The notes: generated by a model not told the origin, from the sequence alone. Shown: positions 46,830 through 55,831, counted from the first letter of the stretch. The stretch is 55,831 bases of DNA from Dehalococcoidia bacterium (GCA_035310145.1 DATGEL010000063.1:1-55831); one strand, 5' to 3'. A program made the numbers and translations.

Positions 46830-48080
46830 CTACACCGTGGCCGGCTCGGCGGCGAACTGCGCCTGGAACTCCGCGTAGTGCGCGTCCCACATCGGCCCCA
46901 TGCGCGGCTCGTCGCTAATCGTATCCAGCGGCCAGACGCGGTGCCGTTCGGGATGCAGCGGCAGCTCTGGCTCGACCCCGTCGTCGAGGCGTTGCGCCAG
47001 GCGCAGTAACTGCTTGCGCATGAAGATGATGGCGACGTCCGTGCTGCCCAGGTGCTCGTCGCTGCGGTCCACAATCGGACCCATCGAGTCGGTCATCGCC
47101 GCGTCCTGCACGCGGTTGGTAGGCAGTCCCGTGTAGTTGACGGAGCGCTGCATCTCTCGATCGATCAGGTAGTTGTTATCCTTGTTGCGCGTCAGCCGCC
47201 AGCTGCCCGGAATCAGATCGATGTATGGCGGCTCGTTTGTGGTGCTCGGCGGGCGCGGCGTGCTGGTGATCGTCCACCACCAGCTATGCTCGTCGTCCAT
47301 CGGCAGCACGAAGAAGCCGGCGCCGGGGCCGCCGGCCGGTCCGGGGATCGTGGTGAAGACCGGCAGCACGAACGGCGTCAGACGCCAGTAGTAGCGGCCG
47401 TCGGCCACGTCGCGCCGCGCGCCGTAGACGAAGCCGAAGTCCGTCTCCTGCACCTCGATCTCGGGAGCGCCGTCCAGGATCTGCTGCCGCGCGCCGGGGA
47501 TCGGCCGGTCGAACCAGCGGTGCAGGTAGGTGACGTGCGCGGAGTCGATGTTGCCTTCCAGCCCCTGCGCGTAGTTGGCCTCCTGCATCCACTTCCACAC
47601 GCGCAGGTGCGGGTTGTTTGGCCGCACGCACCAGTCGTACAGCGGCAGCGGCGGCTGGCGCTCGGCCGGACCCATGTAGATCCAGATCATGCCGCCCCAG
47701 TCGGCGCCGGGGTAGGCGGTGATGTGGATCTTCTCTTTGAAGCCACTGCCTGCCCGCTCGGTGGGCATCTCGACGCAGTTGCCCGCCACGTCAAACTTCC
47801 AGCCGTGGTAGACGCAGCGCAGGCCGCACTCTTCGTTACGTGCGAAGAACAGGCTCGCCCGGCGGTGCGGACAGGCCTCCTGCACAAACGCGATGCGGCC
47901 GTTCGTATCGCGGAAGGCGACCAGGTCTTCGCCCAGGATGCGGAAGCGCACCGGCGTGCAATCCGGCGCAGGCAGCTCCTCGGGCAGCAGCGCGGGCAGC
48001 CAGAAGCGGCGAAACAGCTCGCCCATCGGCGTGCCTTTGCCCGTTTGCGTGAGCAGCTCGTTGTCCTGCGCACTCAACAT
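46830..48080 (-). CDS. Rieske non-haem iron oxygenase, alpha subunit
   Basis: A 416-residue aromatic ring-hydroxylating-type oxygenase. The Rieske [2Fe-2S] ligands are CPHRRASL (C70, H72) and CVYHGWKFD (C89, H92). The mononuclear iron site is EGNIDSAHVTYLH (bridging D179, ligands H182 and H187). The overall pattern resembles phthalate 4,5-dioxygenase-like single-component monooxygenases. Its reductase is not in the window. GGAGGAG precedes ATG 48080. The TetR gene on the same strand 200 bases upstream is a likely regulator. Confidence 0.92.
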   Translation of the reverse strand: MLSAQDNELLTQTGKGTPMGELFRRFWLPALLPEELPAPDCTPVRFRILGEDLVAFRDTNGRIAFVQEACPHRRASLFFARNEECGLRCVYHGWKFDVAGNCVEMPTERAGSGFKEKIHITAYPGADWGGMIWIYMGPAERQPPLPLYDWCVRPNNPHLRVWKWMQEANYAQGLEGNIDSAHVTYLHRWFDRPIPGARQQILDGAPEIEVQETDFGFVYGARRDVADGRYYWRLTPFVLPVFTTIPGPAGGPGAGFFVLPMDDEHSWWWTITSTPRPPSTTNEPPYIDLIPGSWRLTRNKDNNYLIDREMQRSVNYTGLPTNRVQDAAMTDSMGPIVDRSDEHLGSTDVAIIFMRKQLLRLAQRLDDGVEPELPLHPERHRVWPLDTISDEPRMGPMWDAHYAEFQAQFAAEPATV

Positions 48081-49829: not shown

Positions 49830-50507
49830 ATGACCGCTGCGCACCGCGACCCTCCCTTCAGGACGCTGATCCTCGATGACGACGCGAGGCAGCGCCAGCT
49901 CCTGCGAACCCTGCTGGAGGCCGACGGGCGCTTTGCCATCGTTGGCGAGGCCAAGCTGCGTGTCGGCTTTGCCCTGGATACGCTACGGCCTGATCTGATC
50001 GTGGTCGACCCGCTGAGCGATGGACGCCTCGATCTGCGCTACCTGCGCCAGCTGCTAAGCATGGCTCCGCAGGCGTGCGTGGTTGTTTGCACCGCGTCCT
50101 GGGAGGCGACTGCCTTCGGCGATCTGCTGCTGCTCGGGGTGCGTGATGTCCTGCCGAAGGCAGCCATCGGCTCATCGGATCTGGGCGATATGCTGGCGCT
50201 GGCCGGCGCGGGAGAGGTCGTGGTCGTCGCCGTGCCGATTGTCGAGGCCCTGCGGACTGAGTTCGTCGCCACGCGGCTGCTCGGCCCGCAGCTCCCCACG
50301 CCGGACCTCAACCCGCTGGAGCAGCAATTGCTGCGCGGACTCGTCGGCGGCCAGAGCGTGAAGGCGATCGCCGCGGCGCTCACTGCTGAAGGCAGGAAGA
50401 TCAGCGCCCGCAACGTCCAGCGTATCAGTGAGCGGCTGCAGCAACGCTTCGGCGCGCAGACGGTGGGGCAGCTCTGTGCCGAGGCAGTGCGGCGCGGCAT
50501 CGCCTGA
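49830..50507 (+). CDS. orphan response regulator with divergent LuxR-type output
   Basis: A 225-residue protein. The receiver has TLILDDDARQR, the phosphoacceptor D60 in LIVVDPLSD, the threonine in VVVCTAS and the lysine in DVLPKAA, so the switch residues look complete. The output domain (about 160-225) is LuxR-like in outline (LNPLEQQLLRGLVGGQSVKA, ARNVQRISERLQQRFGAQTV) but with an insertion before the recognition helix. Clearly paralogous to the gene at 50731 (shared LLEADGRFA-V-VG). No kinase gene adjoins. No clear ribosome binding site. Confidence 0.8.
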   Translation: MTAAHRDPPFRTLILDDDARQRQLLRTLLEADGRFAIVGEAKLRVGFALDTLRPDLIVVDPLSDGRLDLRYLRQLLSMAPQACVVVCTASWEATAFGDLLLLGVRDVLPKAAIGSSDLGDMLALAGAGEVVVVAVPIVEALRTEFVATRLLGPQLPTPDLNPLEQQLLRGLVGGQSVKAIAAALTAEGRKISARNVQRISERLQQRFGAQTVGQLCAEAVRRGIA

Positions 50508-50730
50508 GGCATCGCGGCATTGGGTCTGGCAACGATCGTGCACCGGTGTCCAAACGCGCCAACCGCTGGCGTCTTGTTCCAGCTAGGCAACCGTCGCTGC
50601 ACGCCGCATAATCGGGCCACTGTATCACGGCTTCATCTCTATACGCATTGTATTTCCAGCATCGGTTTGTCCGCGACGAGGGGCCGGCTGCTGTCAGAAC
50701 CGCGGTGCAGGGAGAGAGGAGGAGTGTGCC

Positions 50731-51414
50731 ATGGCCCGCATGGACGAAGACGGTCGCATGCGTGCGTTGGTGCTCGACCCCGATCCGACGCAACAAGCGA
50801 TGGTCCGGCGCCTTCTGGAGGCGGATGGCCGCTTTGCCGTCGTCGGCGTCTTCGCACCCGAGGACTGCCCGCCCGCCGTAGCCGCCGCCCTGCGATCGGA
50901 CGTGGTGCTGCTCGATCCGAGTGACGAGACGGGCTTGGACCTGCGCTTGGCCGGCGAGGTGGTGGGATCCGTTCCGCTCGCGCGAGTCGTCCTACGCAGC
51001 GCGTATTTCAGCTTGGAAACCATGGCCGCGGTGACTGCGCTGGGCGTGGGCGGCTACCTGGTCAAGCTGAACCGACCGATCCCGCTTTTGTGCGAGGCGC
51101 TGGCGTTCACCCGGCGCACCGGGATCTTCGTCTGCGCCGGCGCCATTACCAACTGCGTCCGTGTGCAACTCGCGGCACGGACCCTCCTCGAGCGGCCGCA
51201 GGACATGGAGCCGTCAGTGACGTTGACGCCGCGCGAGCAGCAAGTGCTCGCGCTGGTGGCCGCCGGCGAAACAGACAAAGCCATCGCCACCACGCTTCAG
51301 ATCCAACCCAGCACCGTGGATAGCTACGTCGGGCGATTGTGCGAGAAACTGCACTCTCGAAACCGCCCGCATTTGGTGGATGCTGCTTGGCGGCGATGTC
51401 TCCTTGGTGGCTGA
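50731..51414 (+). CDS. orphan NarL-type response regulator, paralogue of the preceding gene
   Basis: A 227-residue regulator with strong GGAGGAG before ATG 50731. The receiver has ALVLDPDPTQQ (the acidic pocket is D-P-D instead of D-D), D62 in VVLLDPSDE, a Ser in VVLRSAY and the Lys in GYLVKLN. The LuxR output is canonical: LTPREQQVLALVAAGETDKA, TVDSYVGRLCEKLHSRNRPH. It lies directly before the AT-richer Mau-like operon (158-base gap) and could regulate it, which is inference from position only. Confidence 0.85.
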   Translation: MARMDEDGRMRALVLDPDPTQQAMVRRLLEADGRFAVVGVFAPEDCPPAVAAALRSDVVLLDPSDETGLDLRLAGEVVGSVPLARVVLRSAYFSLETMAAVTALGVGGYLVKLNRPIPLLCEALAFTRRTGIFVCAGAITNCVRVQLAARTLLERPQDMEPSVTLTPREQQVLALVAAGETDKAIATTLQIQPSTVDSYVGRLCEKLHSRNRPHLVDAAWRRCLLGG

Positions 51415-51572: not shown

Positions 51573-52142
51573 ATGATAGGGATTCTGGTCATTCTCCTCG
51601 GCCGCGGCAGTCTTGCGTGGATACTCATCAGTGCAGGGCTGGAGAAAGCTTGGCAGCCAGCGCAGCTAGCCACTCTGCTTACCAGTCGCCTTCCCTTTAC
51701 CGCGCGCGTGGCTAGACGCATCGTCTGGCTGGTAATCCTGAGCGAGTTCCTCATCGGAATCGGCTTGTTCTTGCCGATCGACTCGCCCGTCCCTGCGATC
51801 GCCGCCTGTGGACTCTTGGCAAGTTTCGCCGTCGTGCTGGCTGTATGGGCTAAGGTCGGCCTTTCAGACGCTTGCGGCTGTGGCGGCCTGTTGCCGACCC
51901 AGCGTGTTAGCTGGCCGCATGTCATCAGCGTCGCGTCGCTCGCTTTACTCGCCGGCTGCATCGCGGTGGTCGGTGCTTCGTTCTGGCCAGCCCTTGCGCC
52001 TCGCGAGGTATCGCTGCCAGAGCAGCTCTTTACCTTGTTTATACCACTTCAACTCCTCATTGGTACAGCTATCGGACGCTCTCTTCGCTTGGTGCATCAG
52101 GACATCAGCCGACTTGATCGTTACTATTGTGAGGCAAAGTAG
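51573..52142 (+). CDS. MauE-like membrane protein
   Basis: A 189-residue protein with four hydrophobic segments (LVILLGRGSLAWILISAGLE, IVWLVILSEFLIGIGLFL, IAACGLLASFAVVLAVWA, VISVASLALLAGCIAVVG) and the DACGCGG motif before VSWPHV. This is the MauE/DoxX pattern, in which a CGC-G pair precedes a Trp-containing helix. MauE is a membrane partner of MauD needed for disulfide formation in the methylamine dehydrogenase light chain. Its stop overlaps the next start by one base (TAGTG). First gene of the AT-richer operon. Confidence 0.85.
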   Translation: MIGILVILLGRGSLAWILISAGLEKAWQPAQLATLLTSRLPFTARVARRIVWLVILSEFLIGIGLFLPIDSPVPAIAACGLLASFAVVLAVWAKVGLSDACGCGGLLPTQRVSWPHVISVASLALLAGCIAVVGASFWPALAPREVSLPEQLFTLFIPLQLLIGTAIGRSLRLVHQDISRLDRYYCEAK

Positions 52143-52759
52143 TGAGTGCTCTTCTCGTAGCCGGTGTGATCACATCATTGCTCGCTAACATCCTTCTCTT
52201 AGCGGCAGTTCTCGGTCTAGCGAGAGAACTCGGTGTATTGCTAGCGCGATCTGGACCACCTCATGCCAAGGCATCTGCACATGGTCCGGAGGTTGGTACA
52301 GTAATCGACGCCTTTTCAGTTGTTGGTATAGATGGTACACAGCGCCATGCGCGACCTTCGAAGTCCACCAGTAACCTTCTGCTGTTCACTTCGCCCACAT
52401 GCCCTATCTGCCAATCACTACTCCCGTCACTCGTTGTGTTCGCAAAAGCCTACAAAGGCGTAATTAATACAACAGTAGTTGGCATTAAGAGAACAAGCGA
52501 TGACAACGACGTTGCAGACTATATCAACCGATTCAAACGCCACGGTATGGTATTCACAGTCTCTCAAGAGCTGCACGAACGTCTAGGTGTGACTATGACA
52601 CCGTACGCGATATTACTGGATAATGCTAACACAATACGATCAATAGGCATTGTTAATAGTCTCGAACATCTCGAAAGCTTAGTGACCGTAGAGTCACACG
52701 TTGATATGCGACGCGAGCTCATTCTATCGGACTCAGAATTGTCTTCGCAGCATGCATAG
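52142..52759 (+). CDS. MauD-like membrane-anchored thioredoxin-fold protein
   Basis: A 205-residue protein from GTG 52142. An N-terminal membrane anchor (VAGVITSLLANILLLAAVLG) leads to a thioredoxin-like domain outside the membrane: FTSPTCPICQSLLPSLVV with the redox pair C87-P-I-C90 and the cis-proline in TMTPYAILLD. This is the MauD layout, an enzyme that forms or isomerises disulfides in MauA. Codon use is markedly AT-rich compared with flanking genes. It is followed 21 bases later by the MauA-like gene, its expected client. Confidence 0.85.
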   Translation: MSALLVAGVITSLLANILLLAAVLGLARELGVLLARSGPPHAKASAHGPEVGTVIDAFSVVGIDGTQRHARPSKSTSNLLLFTSPTCPICQSLLPSLVVFAKAYKGVINTTVVGIKRTSDDNDVADYINRFKRHGMVFTVSQELHERLGVTMTPYAILLDNANTIRSIGIVNSLEHLESLVTVESHVDMRRELILSDSELSSQHA

Positions 52760-52780
52760 CCAGGCAGTAGGAGGCTGGAA

Positions 52781-53215
52781 ATGAGCGGCGAATACCTCCT
52801 GCAGCGACTAGCAAATCGCTCTATCCGCCGAAGCTTTATCAGGCGCACCGGTAAGGTAGTTTTCGGTGCAGTTGGTATCGGTCTGGTGGCACGTTCGCTG
52901 GCGGAAGTAACACCAAAGTCGGCATTAGCACAGACATACTGCAGTGGAACAGCCGAACTAGGTATGTGTGGTTTGCCCTGTGATCATTGTTATGACGGAA
53001 CCGTCACGAGCTGCCCTTCGGGTGATTCTACTGGCTCATCGTATTGGGCATACTATATCACAGGACTGCGAGTTTGGTACTACTACTACGATTGCTGTAC
53101 GATATACACGCCATGCGCCAACTCGACAAACCAGTGTAAGAACAACTGTCCACAAGATACTTGGTGTAGCGGTAATTATGACTGCACGTACGTTGTGACG
53201 GGAGGATCGTGTTGA
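52781..53215 (+). CDS. methylamine dehydrogenase light chain-like protein (MauA-like), Tat-exported, cysteine-rich
   Basis: A 144-residue protein. The twin-arginine signal IRRSFIRRTGKVVFGAVGIG ends at SALA-QT (cleavage near A50). The mature 94 residues hold 13 cysteines. From memory of MauA, CYDGTVTSCPSGDSTGSSYW aligns with the stretch around TTQ residue Trp57, YYYDCC with YRDCC, and TWCSGNYDCTYV with the WCFG...YHCT stretch carrying Trp108. So W89 and W128 are candidates for a tryptophan tryptophylquinone. The mature region is shorter than classical MauA. It lies right after MauE- and MauD-like genes. No MauB heavy chain or MauG is present. Confidence 0.75.
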   Translation: MSGEYLLQRLANRSIRRSFIRRTGKVVFGAVGIGLVARSLAEVTPKSALAQTYCSGTAELGMCGLPCDHCYDGTVTSCPSGDSTGSSYWAYYITGLRVWYYYYDCCTIYTPCANSTNQCKNNCPQDTWCSGNYDCTYVVTGGSC

Positions 53216-53289
53216 ACCGTTGGATCGCGTATATTGCGGCGCTAATCATCGCTGTTGAGGCTGGAGTCAAGAGTTGGTGGACAGCCTGA
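53212..53289 (+). CDS. 25-residue membrane peptide
   Basis: A TTG at 53212 overlaps the MauA-like stop (TTGA) and has GGAGG 6 bases upstream. It encodes MNRWIAYIAALIIAVEAGVK then SWWTA, one predicted membrane helix with a WW near the C-terminus. Its stop overlaps the GAGGA ribosome binding site of the next gene. The tight coupling on both sides argues that it is translated. Function unknown. Confidence 0.55.
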   Translation: MNRWIAYIAALIIAVEAGVKSWWTA

Positions 53290-53298
53290 GGATGGTCC

Positions 53299-53853
53299 AT
53301 GGTGGGAACCATGTGTCTTGCCGTGCGCAAGACGGAGTCAACCGGGGTGCTTTGGCTATTTGCTGGTGCGACGGCGGCCGGTGGTGCAACGATGGGCCTA
53401 TGCGCCGCCTGTATTTGTGTGGTGGTGGGTGATTGGTCAGCTACCACCCGAGTGGTAGAAATAGTCTTGGGGATGCTGTTGGCTCTCGTGGCGCGGGAAG
53501 CCTTGGTGTCGGATCGCAGGTGCTATGCGGGGCTGAAGCGACAAGTTGCCCCGGGAACGATGCTCTGCAATTCATTGCCAAAGACAGCCATCATCTGGGG
53601 CGTGCAATTGGGTGTCGGGGTGCTGACGCGAGTGAACACGTGGGCACTGTGGGCGATGGTCGCGATACTGATCTGGCTGGCTGACCCTTTCGCTGGTTGT
53701 GTACTCGGCGGCGTTTACGGGCTAACACGAGGCCTGCAACTGATCCTCATTGCCCGTGCTCACGCATGGGAGCCGAGGGTGTTGATGCTCCGGCTCCAGG
53801 CCATCGATGAGCGGTTGCGTGTCGGTGGACTGGCGGGTTTAGCGTTCCTTTGA
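53299..53853 (+). CDS. integral membrane protein of the Mau-like operon
   Basis: A 184-residue protein with about four hydrophobic segments (GVLWLFAGATAAGGATMG, VVEIVLGMLLALVAREAL, IIWGVQLGVGVLTRVNTW, WALWAMVAILIWLADPFAG) and a Cys pair in GLCAACICVVVGDW. Family not recognised; it is smaller than the CcdA-like MauF. GAGGA lies 6 bases before ATG 53299. Position suggests a role in maturation, anchoring or electron transfer for the MauA-like protein (inference). Confidence 0.65.
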   Translation: MVGTMCLAVRKTESTGVLWLFAGATAAGGATMGLCAACICVVVGDWSATTRVVEIVLGMLLALVAREALVSDRRCYAGLKRQVAPGTMLCNSLPKTAIIWGVQLGVGVLTRVNTWALWAMVAILIWLADPFAGCVLGGVYGLTRGLQLILIARAHAWEPRVLMLRLQAIDERLRVGGLAGLAFL

Positions 53854-53891
53854 GGCATACTGACAGCGGTCTGGCGGTAAGGGGGTACCCA

Positions 53892-54281
53892 ATGTCATCG
53901 ATAGGCGTAGCCGCGCGACGTGGTCGGAGATGGGATGGACGACGCCCGCTAGTCCTCGCCGCACTCATGGTGATGCTGCTCGGCGCGGGGCTTGGCCTCG
54001 TGGGGCTGCTGCTTTGGCAAACCAGCAGTCGGTCAGGCGGGCACAGCGGCAGAACGCGTCTTGCCCCCGAGGGTGTAGCTGCCGCACAGGGTGGTGATGG
54101 CTGGCATGTCACGGTTTCACCGGCCTATCGGGACGGCAACTTCATTGTCACTTTAGATCCGAATGCCGCTGTCGTGAGCCTGACCGATGCTGGCACGGGT
54201 GCTGAGGTAGCGACTATCCAGGTCACCTACAACCCGCTTGTGCTGCAGCGACGCAGCGCGCATCCCTCTCTGCCAACCTAA
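53892..54281 (+). CDS. membrane-anchored exported protein at IS3 boundary
   Basis: A 129-residue protein from ATG 53892 (AAGGGGG upstream). A basic N-terminus precedes one membrane helix (LVLAALMVMLLGAGLGLVGL); the outer part (WHVTVSPAYRDGNFIVTLDP, VVSLTDAGTGAEVATIQVTY) is a small beta-rich domain. The stop lies only 2 bases before the left inverted repeat of the IS3 element, so the original C-terminus could have been longer. Family not recognised. Confidence 0.65.
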   Translation: MSSIGVAARRGRRWDGRRPLVLAALMVMLLGAGLGLVGLLLWQTSSRSGGHSGRTRLAPEGVAAAQGGDGWHVTVSPAYRDGNFIVTLDPNAAVVSLTDAGTGAEVATIQVTYNPLVLQRRSAHPSLPT

Positions 54282-54334
54282 GGTGAGACAATCGAAGTCT
54301 CGAAATTAGTGTAGGGCGGGGAGAGAAACGCCTG

Positions 54335-54778
54335 ATGGTTGCCGAACCAATCCCCGCAGACCGTTCCCCCCTTCAAGGCCGTCCCCCGATGGCGGCAGTT
54401 CCCGAACGCCCGGATCCCGAGGTCCGCGAGCGGCCCACGCGCCGCCGCTTCACGGTGGACTACAAGCTGCGCATCCTGGCCGAAGCCGATGCCTGTGCAG
54501 AAGCCCGCCAGGTCGGCGCCCTCTTGCGGCGGGAAGGCTTGTACTACTCGCACCTGGCGCACTGGCGCCAGCAGCGGGCCACGGGTGGTCGCCAGGCGCT
54601 GGCGCAGCCGCGTGGCCGTAAGCCCGCTGATCCCGCTGCGGGCGAGGTGCTACGGCTGCAGCAGGAGAACGGCCAGCTCCGTCGCCGTGTCGCCGTCGCC
54701 GAGGCGATCATTGCCGCCCAAAAAAACTTGGCGGCGGTGTTGGGGCTGACGTTGCCGGAGCCACCGCCAGCGCCGTAA
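54335..54778 (+). CDS. IS3-family transposase OrfA
   Basis: A 147-residue DNA-binding subunit: RPTRRRFTVDYKLRILAEAD, a helix-turn-helix in RQVGALLRREGLYYSHLAHW, and a leucine-zipper-like C-terminal helix (VLRLQQENGQLRRRVAVAEA). It recognises the IS ends. Near its 3' end is the A-AAA-AAC slippery heptamer (54721-54727), which allows production of the OrfAB fusion transposase. Confidence 0.9.
   Translation: MVAEPIPADRSPLQGRPPMAAVPERPDPEVRERPTRRRFTVDYKLRILAEADACAEARQVGALLRREGLYYSHLAHWRQQRATGGRQALAQPRGRKPADPAAGEVLRLQQENGQLRRRVAVAEAIIAAQKNLAAVLGLTLPEPPPAP
54721..54727 (+). promoter_or_regulatory. -1 programmed frameshift heptamer
   Basis: A-AAA-AAC in the OrfA reading frame (codons AAA AAC). The -1 frame downstream is open into OrfB, so slippage yields an OrfAB transframe protein, as in other IS3-family elements. 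Confidence 0.75.
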
Positions 54779-54807
54779 CGGCGCTCGCCGCCACGACGGG
54801 CATCCGG

Positions 54808-55779
54808 GTGGCGTGCGCGGCACTGGGCGTCAACCGCGCCAGCTACTACCGGCAGCAGGGACCCACCACGGGGACGCGGGGCGGCGGTGGTGGGCACCAA
54901 CCACGGGCGCTCAGCCCAGCCGAACAGCACGCGGTGCTGGACGTGCTGCACAGTGCGCGGTTCCGGGATGCCGCGCCGGCCGAAGTCTATGCCACGCTCT
55001 TGGATGAAGGGAGCTACCTGTGTTCGGAGCGCACGATGTATCGGCTGCTCGCCGCCGCCGGCGAAGCGCGCGAGCGCCGCGACCAGGCGCGGCATCCCAC
55101 CTATACCCGGCCGGAGTTGCTGGCGACGCGCCCCAACGAGGTCTGGAGCTGGGACATCACCAAGCTGCTGGGCCCGACGAAATGGACCTATTTCTACCTG
55201 TACGTGATCCTCGACGTCTTCAGTCGCTACGTGGTGGGCTGGATGGTGGGGCTGCGCGAAACGGCGGAACTGGCGCAGGACTTCATCGGCGCCACTGCGG
55301 CCAAACAGGGCATCGACGCGGGCACGCTCACGTTGCACGCCGACCGGGGCACCGCGATGACCTCCAAACCGGTGGCGTGCTTGCTGGCAGACTTGGGCAT
55401 CACGCAGAGTCATTCCCGACCCCACGTGTCCAACGACAATCCCTACTCCGAGAGCCAGTTCAAGACGCTGAAGTACCGGCCGGCCTTTCCCGCTCGCTTT
55501 GCCTCCGTCGAGGTGGCACGGGCGTTCTGCCAGACGTTCTTCCCCTGGTACAACAGCGAACATCATCACAGCAGCCTCGGCCTGCACACGCCAGAGGCGC
55601 TCCACTACGGGCTGGCGGCGGGGCGGCAACGCGTCCGGCGCGAAACCCTGGACGCCGCCTACGCGGCCCATCCCGAGCGCTTCGTCCAGCAGCCACCGAC
55701 CCCACCCGCGATCCCGACGGCTGCCTGGATCAATCCGCCGTTCCCGCTGCCTGAGGAGGTGACGACGATGCCAGAGTGA
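54808..55779 (+). CDS. IS3-family transposase OrfB (DDE integrase domain)
   Basis: A 323-residue catalytic part, counted from GTG 54808, though it is probably made mainly as an OrfAB fusion through the upstream slippery site. The N-terminal helix-turn-helix-21-like region (YATLLDEGSYLCSERTMYRL) precedes the rve integrase core with the catalytic triad: WSWDITKLLG, LHADRGTAMTS and NPYSESQFKTLKY. It appears intact to the C-terminus. Confidence 0.93.
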   Translation: MACAALGVNRASYYRQQGPTTGTRGGGGGHQPRALSPAEQHAVLDVLHSARFRDAAPAEVYATLLDEGSYLCSERTMYRLLAAAGEARERRDQARHPTYTRPELLATRPNEVWSWDITKLLGPTKWTYFYLYVILDVFSRYVVGWMVGLRETAELAQDFIGATAAKQGIDAGTLTLHADRGTAMTSKPVACLLADLGITQSHSRPHVSNDNPYSESQFKTLKYRPAFPARFASVEVARAFCQTFFPWYNSEHHHSSLGLHTPEALHYGLAAGRQRVRRETLDAAYAAHPERFVQQPPTPPAIPTAAWINPPFPLPEEVTTMPE

Positions 55780-55831
55780 ATCCTCCGCTAATTTTCCCAA
55801 CGGGTGGTCTCAACAAGGTTGACAGGTTCCG

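Follow-up and report, generated by a model that had tools for sequence, protein, structure and literature searches.

The operon at 51573–54263 of the analysed DNA stretch of 55,831 nucleotides (hereafter the window) is best explained, with a probability of roughly 0.7, as the 5′ portion of an operon encoding a two-subunit, amine-dehydrogenase-like enzyme, a divergent member of the MADH/AADH superfamily; the propeller gene of this operon would have been broken here by an insertion sequence (IS). Its genes, all located on the + strand, would follow the order mauE, mauD, mauA-like light chain, small membrane peptide, membrane protein and membrane-anchored propeller. The preliminary description of this region proposed an orphan MauA/MauD/MauE-like operon, possibly producing a quinone-cofactor protein that works without a heavy chain. 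This reading was not upheld, because the light chains of the relatives are paired with an anchored propeller and the copy in the window is interrupted by an IS.

The light-chain gene (52781–53215) encodes a protein of 144 residues, P0001, which has a twin-arginine leader (SIRRSFIRR) and 13 cysteines, as previously described for this Tat-type product, and contains three tryptophans (positions 89, 99 and 128). The sequence of P0001 itself did not reach the cut-off of PF02975, the profile proposed earlier as a check of its MauA-like character, and no Pfam family was matched at E ≤ 1. The single NCBIfam match, to TIGR04117, was compositional and far under the cut-off, while neither the phmmer search of PDB sequences with P0001 alone nor the scan of viral contigs gave a match. 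The relationship was revealed through the relatives of P0001. When 400 genomes of the phylum were searched, P0001 and P0012, a protein of Candidatus Dormiibacterota isolate palsa_842 (G325), matched each other with an E-value of 3.5e-9, and P0012 passed the PF02975 cut-off of 25 with 37.5 bits; the remaining PF02975-positive genomes belonged to one genus, Thermomicrobium. A nine-member profile including P0001 detected only MADH/AADH light chains among the PDB sequences (E 4.5e-18 to 5e-13). Since P0012 and this profile match both sides, P0001 can be linked to the PF02975 superfamily, and sequence comparison via these relatives indicates that it is a relative of the MADH/AADH light chains, which supports the original MauA-like assignment. 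Two closer relatives were found in the same class as the window, namely in G639 (39% identity, E 3e-20) and G629 (35%, E 8e-19), and the identity of the family copies to P0001 ranged from 24% to 40%. Weak matches in G369 (with TGA stops), G565, G435 and G703 were rejected as they did not represent coherent light chains. The AF2 model of P0001 was of low confidence (pLDDT 41.7). The MauA-like family is real and divergent from the known MADH/AADH enzymes; so far as the papers found show, it is uncharacterised, and the literature search for light chains of Chloroflexota or Thermomicrobium returned no papers.

To compare the putative cofactor residues, 11 Chloroflexota members were aligned with MauA (3c75) and AauA (2ojy). 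W57, W108 and D76 were invariant in all 13 sequences, as were the eight cysteines at positions 23, 36, 38, 46, 78, 88, 109 and 121, and the T122 position was occupied by Thr throughout with a single Ser. The equivalents in P0001 are W89, W128, D104 and T136, respectively, consistent with the earlier observation that both TTQ tryptophans are conserved, while W99, the sole other tryptophan of P0001, is not invariant among the 11 members. Asp32 is not conserved: it is replaced by Cys in P0001 (Cys63), G639 and G629, and by other residues elsewhere (C/H/W/G/Q across the family). Asp32 and Asp76 are active-site aspartates of MADH. The active-site aspartates are described as critical to TTQ biogenesis in MADH (Jones 2005, as cited in PMC7876137). 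Cys112 of P0001 probably stands in for Cys86, the alignment being ambiguous at this position. Cys29 and Cys61 form a pair in MADH; both are absent from P0001, and because they pair, their joint absence in the alignment is regarded as a concerted loss. The TTQ cofactor, the substrate, the electron acceptor and the amine oxidation activity of the family are putative. Two copies differed from the others. The light chain of HR27 (L042, 2072–2521) carries Leu at the W108 position (NQNLCPNP), which may be an assembly error or indicate a cofactor-less copy, and one of the three light-chain copies of Thermomicrobium sp. CFH 73360 (L021/L014) contains two in-frame TAG codons and has probably decayed.

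The gene at 51573–52142 encodes a MauE-like membrane redox protein, which may supply disulfides. The search against PF07291 suggested for it gave 57.2 bits (E 2.8e-15) at a cut-off of 27, confirming the MauE-like assignment, and the gene occupies the same place in the operons of G325 and G629. The next gene, mauD (52142–52759), overlaps the mauE stop codon by one base and encodes a MauD-like membrane-anchored thioredoxin-fold protein with a CPIC motif. Its match to TIGR02661 (MauD) was nearly full-length (E 5.2e-27), which together with the motif bears out its earlier designation as MauD-like; its 94.5 bits are half of the equivalog cut-off (188.6), which was not reached. The short hydrophobic peptide of about 25 amino acids noticed earlier was also found, at 53209–53289, where its gene overlaps the 3′-end of the light-chain gene. 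It ends in AGVKSWWTA, its hydropathy is under the threshold of 1.6, and it has counterparts in the relatives, that of G639 ending in AGLKAWWSP. Of the two unrecognised membrane proteins listed in the preliminary description, the one at 53299–53853 proved to be real. It is a multi-span membrane protein kept at the same place across the family, and it aligns with Thermomicrobium and Dormibacterota proteins, as well as with proteins of G639 (E 1e-13) and G629 (E 5e-9) in BLASTP. The other, 53850–54281, is not a whole gene, as IS sequence begins at 54264.

The survey of homologous neighbourhoods, which had been proposed as a check, argued against the orphan reading: the light chain adjoins a propeller gene in all relatives whose neighbourhood was read. 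In G325 the order is mauE, mauD, mauA-like gene, small membrane protein, membrane protein and propeller, and the same order is followed in G629 up to a contig end. In G639, where the upstream part lies off the contig, the mauA-like gene is followed by the peptide, the membrane protein and the propeller. Thermomicrobium-type genomes contain up to three light chains, which propeller genes adjoin. One of these propellers (L019, 11405–13189) is fused to a C-terminal MauE domain (PF07291, E 3.4e-15) and is followed by a MauD-like gene and a membrane protein; a large-subunit-like part and a part of the maturation machinery are thus joined in one protein. The propellers of the relatives were recognised by no Pfam family, and the propeller profile gave generic weak matches only against the PDB sequences, with no MADH heavy chain among them. 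The model of the Thermomicrobium-type propeller P0020 (pLDDT 79.9, pTM 0.79) was more informative. Structural ranks 1–22 were all taken by AADH, MADH or QHNDH propellers with Z-scores of 22.6–23.5 (about 300 residues, rmsd 3.2–3.8), while generic propellers reached Z 20–22.5, leaving a narrow gap of about 1 to 3 Z units. Judged from this model, the propellers of the relatives resemble MADH/AADH heavy chains; the AADH/MADH-like partner was found in P0020 of the Thermomicrobium type, not in the fragment of the window. Two further observations were made at these loci. The propeller frame of G629 runs into P-type ATPase-like residues at the contig edge (L052, 1–110), which is probably a chimeric assembly end, and Ca. 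Dormiibacterota has a second MauE gene (L018, 15658–17281; PF07291, E 2.9e-17), which has a LuxR-type gene upstream and is followed by the gene of an unrelated exported protein, Tat-type and rich in Cys, that no Pfam family matched.

In the window, the segment at 53892–54263 occupies the operon slot of the propeller genes of G325, G629 and G639. It encodes a hydrophobic membrane anchor, which starts the fragment as in the tested propellers of the relatives, and what appears to be the first blade. The mature part aligned with the G629 propeller with a score of 58, which was reached by none of 20000 shuffles, while other window proteins scored 22–28. The anchor region matched the G639 propeller in BLASTP with an E-value of 0.004, and hhalign with propeller profiles gave short and weak alignments of low probability (E 0.0065–0.022). 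Based on its position and this modest similarity, the segment resembles the start of a heavy-chain-like (propeller) gene, and the earlier statement that no propeller is present was misleading. The gene is interrupted at the 54263/54264 junction by an IS3-type element (54264–55831; HTH_Tnp_1 and rve transposase, PF01527 and PF00665) that reaches the contig end. Contigs C97 and C17 carry an identical left end of the element, and C130 and C81 match the right end of the window exactly. The SLPT residues and the stop codon that close the 53850–54281 ORF are IS sequence, and the same SLPT ends an unrelated interrupted ORF in C17. The large-subunit gene is thus cut by the IS after about 124 codons, and because of this interruption the operon in this genome probably does not function or has only recently been put out of action. 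The downstream piece of the propeller was not found when the genome was searched with the propeller profile, the best hit (E 0.33) lying in the interior of another contig. Joining the window to the IS right ends in C130 or C81 was considered and rejected; the flanks there code for a piece resembling a restriction S-subunit and for a TIG-repeat-like protein.

The genome, which is 99.8% complete, was also searched for the remaining mau families. In agreement with the preliminary description, which had suggested this search, no match over the cut-off was obtained with PF06433 (MauB) or with PF03150 (MauG; best E 0.35). PF02975 likewise had no match over the cut-off in this genome or in any control genome, yet the same search matched other genomes.

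In the proposed mechanism, the light chain would be exported in folded form via the Tat pathway, as its leader suggests, and its disulfides would be formed or shuffled by MauE and MauD, by analogy with the genes known from Paracoccus. In line with their invariance, W89 and W128 would be converted to a TTQ-type quinone, and an enzyme other than MauG would finish the cofactor, as no MauG was found. Outside the membrane, the light chain may then dock on the anchored propeller, and electrons would pass from an amine through the light chain/propeller complex to a respiratory carrier.

The preliminary description had also offered an alternative, a disulfide-rich secreted protein that borrowed the Mau maturation system. 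Such a protein may be RiPP-like or structural, would use MauD and MauE for its folding and would not be a quinoprotein. There is precedent for such borrowing, as Streptomyces clusters contain mauE, in one case with mauD, beside a Cys-rich candidate precursor and no other mau genes (PMC7794033), and the second MauE gene of Dormibacterota described above precedes an unrelated Tat-type Cys-rich protein; the loss of Asp32, and of Cys29 and Cys61 in P0001, also fits it. However, all 11 members, diverse as they are, keep D76 and the two tryptophans of TTQ, while W99 of P0001 is not invariant, the family is homologous to the MADH/AADH light chains, and the light chain adjoins a propeller resembling their heavy chains. 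This alternative is thereby weakened to the point that we regard it as unlikely, although its MauE/MauD precedent stands. It is also rather improbable that the fold and the propeller were kept while TTQ was not, leaving a degenerate or repurposed module. The replacement of Asp32 by C/H/W/G/Q, the Leu at the W108 position in HR27, the other copy with stop codons and the lack of MauG in the genome would all be compatible with such a loss, but W57, W108 and D76 are invariant in the other copies despite only 24–40% identity to P0001, as a retained cofactor predicts.

Least probable, and in our view hardly tenable, is the first reading, in which a protein with TTQ or another quinone would do its work with no heavy chain at all. 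The genome contains neither a PF06433 match over the cut-off nor another propeller of the family, as this reading would expect, but the relatives examined keep a propeller beside the light chain and the window gene at the propeller position is visibly interrupted by the IS. The two-subunit amine-dehydrogenase-like enzyme with an IS-broken propeller gene remains the preferred explanation. The copy in the window matters less in itself, other than as a reminder that orphan novelty can be mimicked where a contig ends in an IS.

Among the known systems, AADH (aau, Alcaligenes faecalis) shares with the window operon a homologous light chain with equivalents of W57, W108, D76 and T122 and the accessory mauE/mauD pair, and its large subunit was the closest structural match of the Thermomicrobium propeller model (Z 23.5). 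Like the genome studied here, the aau cluster is not known to contain mauG. In contrast to AADH, the heavy chain here is membrane-anchored and under Pfam recognition, Asp32 and most of the loop that precedes W108 are missing from the light chain, an extra membrane protein and a small peptide are encoded, and the gene order differs. MADH (mau, Paracoccus) has MauA-, MauE- and MauD-like genes, the Tat-type leader and the Cys pattern in common with the window, and its propeller (3l4m_D) gave Z 23.4 with the model of the relatives' propeller; unlike in that system, the genome here has no MauB or MauG family match, P0001 has no PF02975 match and MauD is under the equivalog cut-off. The propeller subunit of QHNDH (1jju_B) has a similar fold (Z 23.2 against the P0020 model), and the tryptophylquinone chemistry of QHNDH resides in its small subunit, in which no similarity to P0001 was seen. 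According to PMC7876137, that subunit matures to CTQ via other enzymes, for example, the flavoprotein QhpG. The Streptomyces candidate RiPP clusters with MauE/MauD (decRiPPter, PMC7794033) share these two proteins and a small Cys-rich protein with the window family, but, unlike in that family, light-chain homology or a propeller is not reported there. The megaplasmid of Thermomicrobium roseum DSM 5159 (NC_011961) carries a cluster, known from annotation, with WP_143714793.1, annotated as methylamine dehydrogenase light chain; its MauE-annotated ORF of 596 amino acids and the neighbouring genes match other Thermomicrobium clusters in size and order. It differs from the window in having several light chains, large hypothetical ORFs between them, a propeller-MauE fusion and a sigma factor.

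A bolder version of the preferred explanation, which we put forward only tentatively, is that these operons form a Chloroflexota-type third branch of tryptophylquinone amine dehydrogenases, with an anchored heavy chain, which in Thermomicrobium is even fused to MauE, no MauG and Asp32 replaced (Cys63 in P0001). The replacement of Asp32 and completion of the cofactor without MauG would in that case imply a different cofactor-making route or cross-link. TTQ enzymes are known from few systems, mainly proteobacterial, and to our knowledge the completion of TTQ where MauG is absent is unresolved. If such a branch exists, its apparently intact operons in the cultured thermophile T. roseum would be a tractable system for MauG-free TTQ completion.

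The G+C content of 51573–54263 is 48–64% compared with 68.8% for the window, and the GC3 of mauD is 0.44 compared with mostly 0.8–0.9 in the window. The family is patchy, with two further convincing matches in 393 genomes of the class and only the one already known in an order of 38 genomes. The drop in G+C and GC3 together with this distribution suggests that the operon was acquired horizontally. Two tandem LuxR/response-regulator-type genes lie directly upstream of mauE (49830–51414) and are possibly regulators of the operon. Further upstream, a Rieske oxygenase with a LigXa-type C-terminal domain (PF19301, PF00355) is encoded at 46830–48080, and an IS66-type transposase gene is located at the other contig end (9–1424), so that transposase genes flank the window at either end.
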